A model generated the notes under the pieces. The model was given only the letters and a program-made list of their open reading frames with translations, made no database searches and had not been told where the DNA came from. Position numbers and translations under genes: made by a program. Positions 11,706 through 15,980 of a DNA stretch of 64,000 bases are shown piece after piece (the stretch's first letter is position 1; the number at the start of each line of letters is the position of its first letter). This DNA is from Hippea alviniae EP5-r. Its GTDB lineage: Bacteria; Campylobacterota_A; Desulfurellia; Desulfurellales; Hippeaceae. Where the stretch lies: the NCBI RefSeq assembly GCF_000420385.1, contig NZ_ATUV01000001.1:310001-374000 (forward strand), in the 5' to 3' direction.

Positions 11706-12156
11706 CAGGTGGGTTTATTTATCTCTTGGCAGTAATGTTGGGAATAGGAGAAGGAATATAAACTGGGCTGTTGTGTATCTTTCAAAGAGAGTTAATGTGA
11801 TCTCAAAGTCAAGCATCATAGAAACCGAAGCGTGGGGCTATAAGAAACAGAAAAAATTTTTAAACTGTGCGTTAAAGGTTGACTGTAAATTAAAACCTTT
11901 TGAATTGCTTAAGTTTTGTAAAAACATAGAAAGAAAACTTAGAAGAGTTAAGAAATTTAAGTGGGGTCCCAGAACCGTCGATGTTGACATAGTTGCCTTT
12001 AAAAATATAATCCTTAAAAGGAAAAGGTTATGGCTTCCGCATAGGCACGCTCATCAAAGACTGTTTGTGATTGAACCTTTGATGGAGCTTGATGCGAAGC
12101 TAAAGTTTGAAGGTTTTACTTTAGAAGAGCACAAAAGCAGGCTTGAAGGGCGTTAA
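11698..12156 (+). CDS. folK: 2-amino-4-hydroxy-6-hydroxymethyldihydropteridine pyrophosphokinase
   Basis: The 152-residue protein has the HPPK signatures [11 protein letters not shown] at the start, ETEAWGY, a NCALKV strand, and the [10 protein letters not shown] motif, whose two aspartates bind the Mg-ATP. It transfers pyrophosphate from ATP to hydroxymethyldihydropterin in folate synthesis. The only plausible start is a TTG at 11698 that overlaps the dapL stop region; no in-frame ATG lies near. The gene is unusually basic. A pantothenate leader begins right after its stop. Confidence 0.93.
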
Positions 12157-12160
12157 GGCT

Positions 12161-12292
12161 CTAAAGACCTGCAAAAAGGAGTTAGTTTGATTTTAAAAAT
12201 AGGTAAAAGACCCGTTGAAAGGGCTTTGAACCGTCTATATAAACCAAAATCGAGCCTGAATATGCCCAGCGTGGGTGTATTCAGGCTTTTTT
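12161..12292 (+). promoter_or_regulatory. panB leader: two similar bulged hairpins followed by an intrinsic terminator (pan-motif-like)
   Basis: Hairpin 1 (12161-12185) pairs CTAA with TTAG and CCT with AGG around AAAGACCT. Hairpin 2 (12202-12232) pairs GGT/ACC, AAAG/CTTT and CCC/GGG, leaving an A at 12205 (opposite GA) and a bulged A at 12210. Both share an AAAGACC core and an A-rich loop leading into AGG. A strong terminator stem AGCCTGAATA/TATTCAGGCT with a T run (12253-12292) then precedes panB's ribosome site. Tandem hairpins with two bulged A residues upstream of pan genes are the description of the 'pan' RNA motif known from Deltaproteobacteria and others; identity here is from reading, not a model search. 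Confidence 0.6.
12253..12292 (+). terminator. intrinsic terminator between folK and panB
   Basis: A 10-bp perfect outer stem AGCCTGAATA / TATTCAGGCT with an inner CCCA/TGGG extension is followed by TTTTTTATTTT. It ends 20 bases before the panB start, so it can stop folK transcription or act as an attenuator of the pan operon. Confidence 0.85.
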
Positions 12293-12312
12293 ATTTTAAG
12301 GAGGTTTGAGAA

Positions 12313-13107
12313 ATGGCTATTACTGTCCCAAAAATCAAGGCAATGAAGGGTAAAGAGAAGATCAGCATGATTACGGCTTATGATTACACTTCTGCTCGTA
12401 TAGCTGATGAAGCTGGAATTGACATAATACTTGTTGGTGATTCTTTGGCTATGGTTATGCAGGGCAAAAGCTCAACAATTCCCGTTACTGTTGATGAAGT
12501 TATTTATCATGCAAAAATGGTTAGACAGGGTGTAAAGAATGCTCTAATTGTTGTTGATATGCCGTTTATGAGTTATCAGGCTGATTATGTTGAAGCCGTG
12601 AGAAACGCTGGAAGAATATTGAAAGAGACTGGCTGTGATGCCGTTAAGCTTGAAGGTGGGCGTGAGTTTGTTCCAACGATAAACAACATTATTGCCGCTG
12701 GAATTCCTGTAATGGGTCATCTTGGTTTGACGCCACAGTCTATAAATATCTTTGGTTCTTATAAAGCTCGTGGTAAAGAGCCAGAAGAAGCAAAAAAGAT
12801 AAAAGAAGATGCGAAGTTTTTGGCAGAAGTGGGTGTGTTTGCTTTAGTGCTTGAGTCTGTTCCAAAGCAGCTTGCAAAAGAGATAACCGAATCCATCTCT
12901 ATTCCAACCATAGGCATTGGCGCTGGTATGCATACTGATGGTCAGGTTTTGGTTTATCACGATATGCTTGGTCTGTTTGACGACTTCAAACCGAAGTTTG
13001 TAAAAAGATATGCTCATCTTAAAAAAGATGCTATTGAAGGTATAAAAAATTATATCAGTGAAGTTAAAGAAGGCAAATTCCCAACAGATGAGCACTCTTA
13101 CGATTAA
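12313..13107 (+). CDS. panB: 3-methyl-2-oxobutanoate hydroxymethyltransferase (ketopantoate synthase)
   Basis: At 264 residues this matches PanB. Motifs include MITAYDYTSARIADEAGID, VGDSLAMVMQGKSSTIPVT, the EGG loop after DAVKLEGG, MGHLGLTPQS, and IPTIGIGAG near residue 195. It adds a hydroxymethyl group from methylene-tetrahydrofolate to 2-oxoisovalerate, the first committed step to pantothenate and CoA. The ATG follows AAGGAGG, and folK just upstream links it to folate supply. It starts the operon panB-panC-panD-(two genes)-panE. Confidence 0.97.
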   Translation: MAITVPKIKAMKGKEKISMITAYDYTSARIADEAGIDIILVGDSLAMVMQGKSSTIPVTVDEVIYHAKMVRQGVKNALIVVDMPFMSYQADYVEAVRNAGRILKETGCDAVKLEGGREFVPTINNIIAAGIPVMGHLGLTPQSINIFGSYKARGKEPEEAKKIKEDAKFLAEVGVFALVLESVPKQLAKEITESISIPTIGIGAGMHTDGQVLVYHDMLGLFDDFKPKFVKRYAHLKKDAIEGIKNYISEVKEGKFPTDEHSYD

Positions 13108-14361: not shown

Positions 14362-15696
14362 ATGATAAAGGCACTCTCCTTGATGGGACAGCTGGGTTAT
14401 GGTTATAACAAGGACTCTTTTTTGAGAGCGATGGAAGATGGTGTTGACTATATCGGCGTTGATGCGGGTTCGATTGATTCAGGCCCATACTTTTTGGGCT
14501 CTGGCAATATGAAGGCTAATTACGATGCAACGCGAAACGACCTTGAGTTGCCGTTGGTTGAAGCTGTAAAGAGAAATATTCCATTTATTGTTGGCTCAGC
14601 TGGTTATGCAGGCGGCAACATTCATGTTGATAGGTTTCTTGAGATTGTTGAAGATATAGCAAGGGATAACAATATCCATTTTAAAGTTGCCGTTATATAT
14701 TCTGAGATTGAAAAAGAGTATCTCATTGGGCTTTTAAAACAGGGCAAAGTAAAGAGTTATGAAGGCAATCCCGAGCTTAAAGAGAGTGATATATTATCGT
14801 CAAATCACATCGTTGCACAGATGGGCGTATCTAAGGTTGTCGAAGTCTTGAAAAATGGTGCAGACCTTGTTATTGCAGGCAGGATTACAGATGCATCAAT
14901 ATATGCTGCCTATCCGTTGCTTAAAGGCTATGAGCCTGCTTTGGTATGGCACATGTCAAAGATTATAGAGTGTGGTGCGTTGTGCGCAAAGCCTGCAAGT
15001 CCGTCTGATGCACTGCTTGGCTTTGTTGATGATGAGTTTTTTTATCTAAAACCGCCTAACCCTTCAAGAAGATGCACGCCCGATTCTGCTATGGCTCATG
15101 CTTTGTATGAGAATACCGACCCGTATGTTATTGAAGAACCAGACGGCACGCTTCTGCTTCACGATGCTGTTTATCTTCAACATGACGAAAGAACGGTAAA
15201 GGTTAAAGGCGCAAAATGGATTGAAAGAGAGAAAAAGACATTCAAGATTGAAGGTGCTAAATTCTCAGGTTATAGAACGATAGCTGTTGCAGGCATAAGA
15301 AACCCTGACATGATAGCCCAGATTGACGATATTCTCAATGTTGCAAAAGAAGAAGCCTATAGGCAGTTTAAAGATGGCTTTAGGTTGAATTTTAGGCTGT
15401 ATGGAAGAGATGCCGTTTTGGGCAGTATGGAGTTTGATAAAAACTTGCATGAGATAGGTTTGATTGTTGATGTTGTTGCAGAGTCTCAGAAGTTTGCACA
15501 TAGAGTCTGCTCGGTGGTTAAGGCGTTTTTGCAGCATTACGATTACAAAGGCAGAATAGCAACAGGAGCCAACCTTGCATTCCCTTATTCGCCTGCTGAG
15601 ATTGATGTGGGTGAAGTGTATGAGTTTAGTGTGTATCACATTGTTGAAGATGAGAGGTTAGAGGAGAAATTTAAGCTAAAGGAGTTTGAGCTTTGA
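14362..15696 (+). CDS. AtuA-like protein (DUF1446 / acyclic terpene utilization family)
   Basis: The 444-residue protein shows family features of AtuA/DUF1446: an N-terminal GVDYIGVDAGSIDSGP stretch, VGSAGYAGG, DLVIAGRITDASIYAA and a HDAVYLQHDER segment near the middle. AtuA-type proteins are found with acyl-CoA carboxylases and dehydrogenases in terpene and branched-chain catabolism, but their biochemical activity is not settled. Here the gene sits between panD and panE with no catabolic genes nearby, directly followed by a DUF4387 gene, its usual partner. A role touching pantothenate or CoA metabolism is only suggested by position. Confidence 0.75.
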   Translation: MIKALSLMGQLGYGYNKDSFLRAMEDGVDYIGVDAGSIDSGPYFLGSGNMKANYDATRNDLELPLVEAVKRNIPFIVGSAGYAGGNIHVDRFLEIVEDIARDNNIHFKVAVIYSEIEKEYLIGLLKQGKVKSYEGNPELKESDILSSNHIVAQMGVSKVVEVLKNGADLVIAGRITDASIYAAYPLLKGYEPALVWHMSKIIECGALCAKPASPSDALLGFVDDEFFYLKPPNPSRRCTPDSAMAHALYENTDPYVIEEPDGTLLLHDAVYLQHDERTVKVKGAKWIEREKKTFKIEGAKFSGYRTIAVAGIRNPDMIAQIDDILNVAKEEAYRQFKDGFRLNFRLYGRDAVLGSMEFDKNLHEIGLIVDVVAESQKFAHRVCSVVKAFLQHYDYKGRIATGANLAFPYSPAEIDVGEVYEFSVYHIVEDERLEEKFKLKEFEL

Positions 15697-15980
15697 AGCT
15701 AAAAGAAGCTGTCAAGATTTTAAGGAGCAAAAACGCTGGAGTTTGGCATATAACCATAGATATCGTGTTTAAAGATGAAAGCCTGTATAAAAGTGCGAAA
15801 GGGAAGTTAAACAAGGAGATTTTTGAAAAGATTTACAAAAGGGAAGTTAGATACTTTGAATGCGACAATATAAACACCTTAAAGGTGTCGTTTTTAAGGG
15901 ATGCCGCTGCTGGTTCTGTCGATGATACTGACTGCCTTGGTGCAAATTACTATATTCCGCTTCTGGAGATAGAGATATGA
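15693..15980 (+). CDS. DUF4387 family protein, AtuA-associated
   Basis: A 95-residue protein with the family opening LRSKNAGVWHITIDIVF and a C-terminal RDAAAGSVDDTDCLGANYY region. DUF4387 proteins normally follow an AtuA/DUF1446 gene or are fused to it, as here. The start is a TTG whose last bases overlap the upstream TGA stop, implying translational coupling. The stop overlaps panE by 4 bases. Function is unknown; a small subunit of the AtuA-like protein is the simplest reading. Confidence 0.75.
   Translation: MKLKEAVKILRSKNAGVWHITIDIVFKDESLYKSAKGKLNKEIFEKIYKREVRYFECDNINTLKVSFLRDAAAGSVDDTDCLGANYYIPLLEIEI

Follow-up and report, generated by a model that had tools for sequence, protein, structure and literature searches.

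The pantothenate operon of Hippea alviniae EP5-r is probably governed by a divergent tandem pan-type RNA that serves as a transcription attenuator and is coupled to translation through a putative upstream open reading frame (uORF). This reading draws on the pan geometry of two hairpins in the panB leader, on covariation measured against controls, on the placement of the element before panB only, on a terminator found in every leader, on a uORF found in 19 of 19 leaders and on an E. coli precedent (PMC4824070). The locus lies in a window of 64,000 nucleotides, by which is meant the whole stretch of DNA that was analysed. A first-pass annotation made from the sequence alone had already called the leader a pan-motif RNA with tandem hairpins; it identified the kind of element correctly but misplaced one part, hairpin 1. 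The features of the locus, in window coordinates, are as follows.

11984-12011, forward strand: candidate promoter TTGACA-16-TATAAT inside folK (12 of 12 consensus matches), with a putative start at about 12018
12137-12172, forward strand: pan-type hairpin 1, with outer stem GCAGG/CCUGC, 3'-bulged A12167, middle stem CUUGA/UAAAG, 5'-bulged A12147 and inner stem GGGC/GCUC
12176-12181, forward strand: Shine-Dalgarno-like AAGGAG of the putative uORF, in the spacer between the hairpins
12187-12309, forward strand: putative uORF of 40 codons with a TTG start, which crosses hairpin 2 and the terminator and stops 3 nt before the panB ATG
12202-12232, forward strand: pan-type hairpin 2, with outer stem GGU/ACC, 3'-bulged A12229, middle stem AAAAG/CUUUG, 5'-bulged A12210 and inner stem CCC/GGG
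12252-12296, forward strand: intrinsic terminator, a 17-bp stem (12252-12288) and then a U-run
12299-13107, forward strand: panB ribosome site and panB (PF02548, E 1e-116), which opens panB-panC-panD-AtuA-like-DUF4387-panE

The gene order assigned with Pfam is aminotransferase, folK (HPPK), panB, panC, panD, an AtuA-like gene, a DUF4387 gene and a panE-type ketopantoate reductase gene. The families found 3' of panB (PF02569, PF02261, PF07287, PF14330 and PF02558/PF08546) bear out the panB-C-D-(x,y)-E operon named in the first-pass annotation.

The folK-panB intervals were compared among relatives at the level of genus, family and order, giving 19 Desulfurellales leaders, nine of them from the genus Hippea. 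In all 19, an intrinsic terminator lies between hairpin 2 and the panB ribosome site, and the hairpin itself conforms exactly or closely to AUA-GGY-A-AAAG-A-CYC-loop-GRG-CUUU-GA-RCC. The stems vary in a compensating manner, the outer being GGU/ACC, GGC/GCC or UGC/GCA and the inner CCCC/GGGG or CCUC/GAGG. Over 14 leaders standard pairs fill 91.7% of the pair cells and 17 cells are changed on both sides, a level reached in none of 500 shuffles and compared with at most 7 in slid controls. RNAalifold, run unguided on these 14 leaders, recovers hairpin 2 with its bulged A's, both of which are invariant in the set; genomes G001 and G009 have three-base indels in the loop. The hairpin that had been proposed at 12202-12232 is real, with compensatory changes conserved in 14 leaders. 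Of the two A's that had been read as unpaired, A12210 is indeed bulged, while A12205 is unpaired as part of an A12205-G12228 mismatch in the middle stem (an A-U pair in G007), and the second invariant bulged A is A12229. The strong intrinsic terminator that had been placed before panB is also real: its stem has a folding energy of -26 kcal/mol (z -7.4), 0 of 200 shuffles being as stable, and terminators of -18 to -34 kcal/mol are present in 19 of 19 leaders. Taken as a whole, the leader (12130-12300) is far more stable than its shuffled versions (z -5.2).

Hairpin 2 and the terminator might form a switch without translation, in which, as long as no ligand or protein stabilises the hairpin, its 3' arm would pair with the terminator's 5' arm. 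GGGCUU can pair with GAGCCU, the duplex of the arms having -8.9 kcal/mol compared with -6.6 for shuffled arms, and in several known pan leaders of other phyla the terminator contains CUCGGUC, which is perfectly complementary to the 3' arm of pan. Arms swapped between clades, however, pair as well (-8.7) as the native ones, so that there is no co-variation between them. The pairing is moreover far weaker than the 17-bp terminator, and the conserved SD-TTG ORF is left unexplained. The simple hairpin 2/terminator antiterminator was set aside after this negative clade-swap result, and we regard a switch of this kind as unlikely. The pan leaders of other phyla in which the panB terminator carries CUCGGUC or a similar sequence are L064, L199, L201, L071, L074, L200 and L202; pairing with GACCGAG of the pan 3' arm means that an antiterminator could form in those leaders.

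The pan geometry was taken from true pan RNAs aligned to the Rfam model RF01749. An A bulged on the 3' strand separates its three outer pairs from a stem of five, a second A, bulged on the 5' strand, separates these five from two to three inner pairs, and a loop caps the hairpin. A geometric descriptor was used for the comparison, since a MAFFT alignment of known pan units was structurally inconsistent and no model was made from it. Nearly all of the Rfam-pan loci fetched fit the descriptor without a mismatch. On the Desulfurellales leaders it found hairpin 2 with one mismatch and, unexpectedly, the hairpin at 12137-12172, and it fits hairpin 1 with no mismatch in seven of the nine Hippea-genus leaders, G004 also fitting with a two-pair inner stem. 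The window's own hairpins each show one middle-stem mismatch, and there are no zero-mismatch matches in the 64-kb window on either strand. Shuffled leaders give a mean of 0.45 chance matches per 100. Among 224 variants of the geometry, differing in bulge bases, spacing (2-8) and strand arrangement, the pan geometry matches six of eight leaders and is jointly best, being tied with its own one-base register shift; the next variant matches three leaders. A perfect descriptor hairpin, UGC.AUCCC.A.UCU(CGAAG)AGA.GGGAU.A.GCA, was also seen with a terminator in leader L048 (genome G021, of the same class), 182 bases before panB, although about 0.45 perfect hits of this type are expected by chance per 100 leaders.

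The sequence models give a different picture. An Infernal search with the Rfam pan model, which the first-pass annotation had proposed as a check, found no match at the locus: a search of the panB leader against Rfam was empty, with RF01749 absent at E<=10, and the leader falls short of the Rfam gathering threshold for pan. RF01749 gave nothing above cut-off elsewhere in this genome and, across the 25 genomes of its phylum, no match at E<=0.01. Conversely, R1, a covariance model of the tandem built from the leaders, recovered none of the known pan RNAs of other phyla. The UC/GA next to the 5' bulged A of pan is absent, hairpin 2 having CC/GG or CU/AG at this place and most copies of hairpin 1 GG/CC or GG/CU.

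The element thus resembles pan (RF01749) in its two bulged A's at the same positions (3' near the base and 5' near the loop) with five pair positions between them, in its tandem arrangement, which most pan members show and which is present here in the genus Hippea, and in its place upstream of panB-panC-panD, where many pan members also have an intrinsic terminator before panB. It differs in its inner stem (CYC/GRG or GG/CC as against UC/GA beside the bulged A) and in a middle stem that is rich in A and, in hairpin 2, contains a mismatch, and it lies below detection by the Rfam model; here, too, a uORF starts between the hairpins and hairpin 1 overlaps folK. Shape and place match pan and sequence does not; homology of the element with pan RNAs is likely but not proven. 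The most fitting label is that of a divergent pan-type RNA which is not a member by Rfam score. The earlier identification as a pan motif accordingly stands as to kind, geometry and covariation and falls as to the coordinates of hairpin 1 and a match to Rfam; the metabolite sensing that it suggested is not supported. That the same geometry is seen with a different sequence picks out the two bulged A's and their spacing as the pan features that were kept. A divergent version is thus present in a phylum where the standard Rfam model finds no pan RNA, and that model misses divergent members.

The pan motif was described computationally in 2010, and Weinberg et al. (2010, PMC2864571), its authors, proposed that it is a binding motif for a dimeric protein; no binding partner or mechanism was reported in the literature that we found. 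A true riboswitch, in which the hairpins directly bind pantothenate, CoA, ketopantoate or a relative of these, would suit a tandem element with a terminator before a pathway operon, but the hairpins are only about 31-36 nt each, with few conserved unpaired bases (the two A's) and no complex pocket, and a protein was also favoured by the authors of 2010 (PMC2864571). Direct ligand binding therefore seems to us distinctly improbable.

All 19 leaders have an SD-like sequence and a TTG in the interval that separates the two hairpin positions, and these mark an ORF newly seen here. In each of them a 4-5 of 6 match to AGGAGG lies upstream of the TTG, the TTG opens the single frame of the three in which no stop occurs ahead of the terminator, and the ORF ends inside the terminator or past it. 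The distance from the TTG to the hairpin takes five values (12, 9, 6, 5 and 7 nt), and in G012 the ORF, though in a different frame with respect to the hairpin, is still open. This suggests that translation of the putative uORF, rather than its peptide, is probably the conserved thing, and a function for the peptide sequence was rejected on the same ground. The predicted product of 12187-12240 looks like the beginning of ribosomal protein L28 (GKRPxxGxxxSHxN), probably by chance. A comparable uORF is absent from 21 of 24 known pan leaders checked and its presence in three of the 24 indicates that it is not a general pan feature. In the known pan leaders L198, L200 and L174, from other lineages, an SD-ATG ORF was observed just 3' of the hairpin, running into or past the terminator.

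Translation-coupled attenuators of the pyrBI and ampC type are known from enterobacteria. As in those systems, a short leader ORF, here a putative one, reads into a terminator, and a ribosome translating it would prevent termination; in contrast to them, a bulged-hairpin element overlaps the ORF, the ORF starts between two such hairpins and the gene concerned is one for pantothenate synthesis. The uORF might nevertheless act alone as an attenuator of this sort, sensing translation capacity or polymerase pausing, with the hairpins only tuning the progress of the ribosome. The ORF runs into the terminator in all 19 leaders, and there is a related precedent in E. coli, where a terminator that lies shortly after a translated gene is repressed almost completely (PMC4824070). 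Such a mechanism leaves unexplained, however, both the exact two-A geometry, which recurs in pan RNAs that precede this gene in other phyla, and hairpin 1, which in G001 lies wholly 3' of the folK stop, and we give it little credence.

Hairpin 1 overlaps the 3' end of folK, its 5' arm being inside the gene, and folds with -17 kcal/mol (z -3.8; 0 of 200 shuffles as stable), with one mismatch in the middle stem CUUGA/UAAAG in the window. The first hairpin of the first-pass annotation had been placed instead at 12161-12185, which is unstable (-2.6 kcal/mol, 26 of 200 shuffles folding as well); the AAAGACC noted there is the 3' half of the true hairpin, whose arm within folK had been overlooked. 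The stretch 12161-12185 was rejected as a hairpin both for this instability and because in relatives it corresponds to the end of folK and the ribosome site of the uORF. In eight Hippea-genus leaders 7 of the 13 pairs of hairpin 1 show two-sided changes, the outer stem occurring as GCAGG/CCUGC, GCAAG/CUUGC or GCGGG/CCCGC and the middle stem as CUUGA/UCAAG, CUCGA/UCGAG or CUUUG/CAAAG. For the two-hairpin structure as a whole, 92% of cells pair in these leaders, and 8 pairs and 13 cells are changed on both sides, compared with means of 3.6 pairs and 4.3 cells in shuffles and at most 3 in slid controls. An unbiased RNAalifold consensus of the eight recovers both hairpins with their bulged A's, and in alignment A3 the columns of A12/A32 and A75/A94 are unpaired and do not vary. 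Covariation in the stems among related leaders, on which the first-pass annotation had made its call depend, is therefore present in both the set of 8 and the set of 14.

Sister genera have a plain hairpin at the place of hairpin 1, without pan-type bulged A's. The Desulfurella form, UUGAG.CGCGA.A.loop.UCGCG.A.CUCAA, has the 3' A and five pairs and no inner stem. The reading of the hairpins as by-products of coding constraint at the 3' end of folK, joined to an ordinary folK terminator, agrees with the overlap of hairpin 1 with folK codons in most genus members and with the folK-like ORF found 5' of panB in the relatives read, but it is very improbable, because hairpin 1 is kept where that constraint is lifted (in G001, where the folK stop precedes the hairpin, and in G000, the genome of the window, where folK stops in the loop at 12154-12156), because it shows compensatory changes and because no conserved promoter was found between the terminator and panB in the leaders compared, so that a plain terminator would silence panB.

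R1 and a second covariance model, R2, built for hairpin 2, recover the panB leader in the 16 genomes of the family and elsewhere give weak matches only. At hairpin 2 the covariance-model match in its own genome has E 2.7e-12 and is the sole match there at E<=1, and in Desulfurellales genomes every model match below E 1e-5 lies before panB. R1 reaches the Desulfurella leaders with 21-24 bits. Further genomic copies were considered and rejected, the extra matches being weak and the strongest within the phylum, in G011, being coding sequence.

For the translation-coupled attenuator that we prefer, the direction of regulation and the factor on the hairpins are offered as a proposal. Transcription would start within folK or farther upstream. 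When the supply of pantothenate or CoA is low, a ribosome would initiate at the TTG and melt hairpin 2, and its presence on the uORF would prevent the terminator from forming, so that panB-E is transcribed. When the supply is high, a factor, most likely a dimeric RNA-binding protein, would grip the bulged A's of both hairpins and cover the ribosome site between them; the uORF would then go untranslated, the terminator would form and transcription would stop. The proposal is weakened by the lack of an Rfam match in the 25 genomes, by the failure of R1 on known pan RNAs, by the state of hairpin 1 in sister genera (no A's) and in Desulfurella (partial) and by the pan leaders without a comparable uORF. 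More tentatively, it may be that pan RNA, in Desulfurellales at least, controls the pantothenate operon through tandem hairpins that bracket the start of a leader ORF and gate its translation, which in turn disarms the terminator, the bulged A's being the grip for a dimeric protein. The uORF thereby offers a concrete and testable route from hairpin to terminator for an RNA motif that has none in the literature found.

The candidate promoter within folK has counterparts at the same place in eight of the nine Hippea-genus leaders, G007 excepted (TTGACA-16-TAYAAT, 11-12 of 12), and in Desulfurella (TTGACA-16-TATCAT/TATTAT, 11 of 12). This conservation is not independent proof of a promoter, as the overlapping conserved folK codons could explain it. 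A second candidate, TTGAAA-17-TATAAA at 12215-12243, is among the best three in G000 only and was rejected. The folK of the window ends earlier than in most relatives of the genus, its stop lying inside the loop of hairpin 1, and alignment A3 shows a one-base insertion in G000 at the same place as this early stop (window 12148-12156). Farther downstream, the AtuA-like (PF07287) and DUF4387 genes lie between panD and panE (window 14362-15980), and their position alone hints at a role in the metabolism of pantothenate or CoA.
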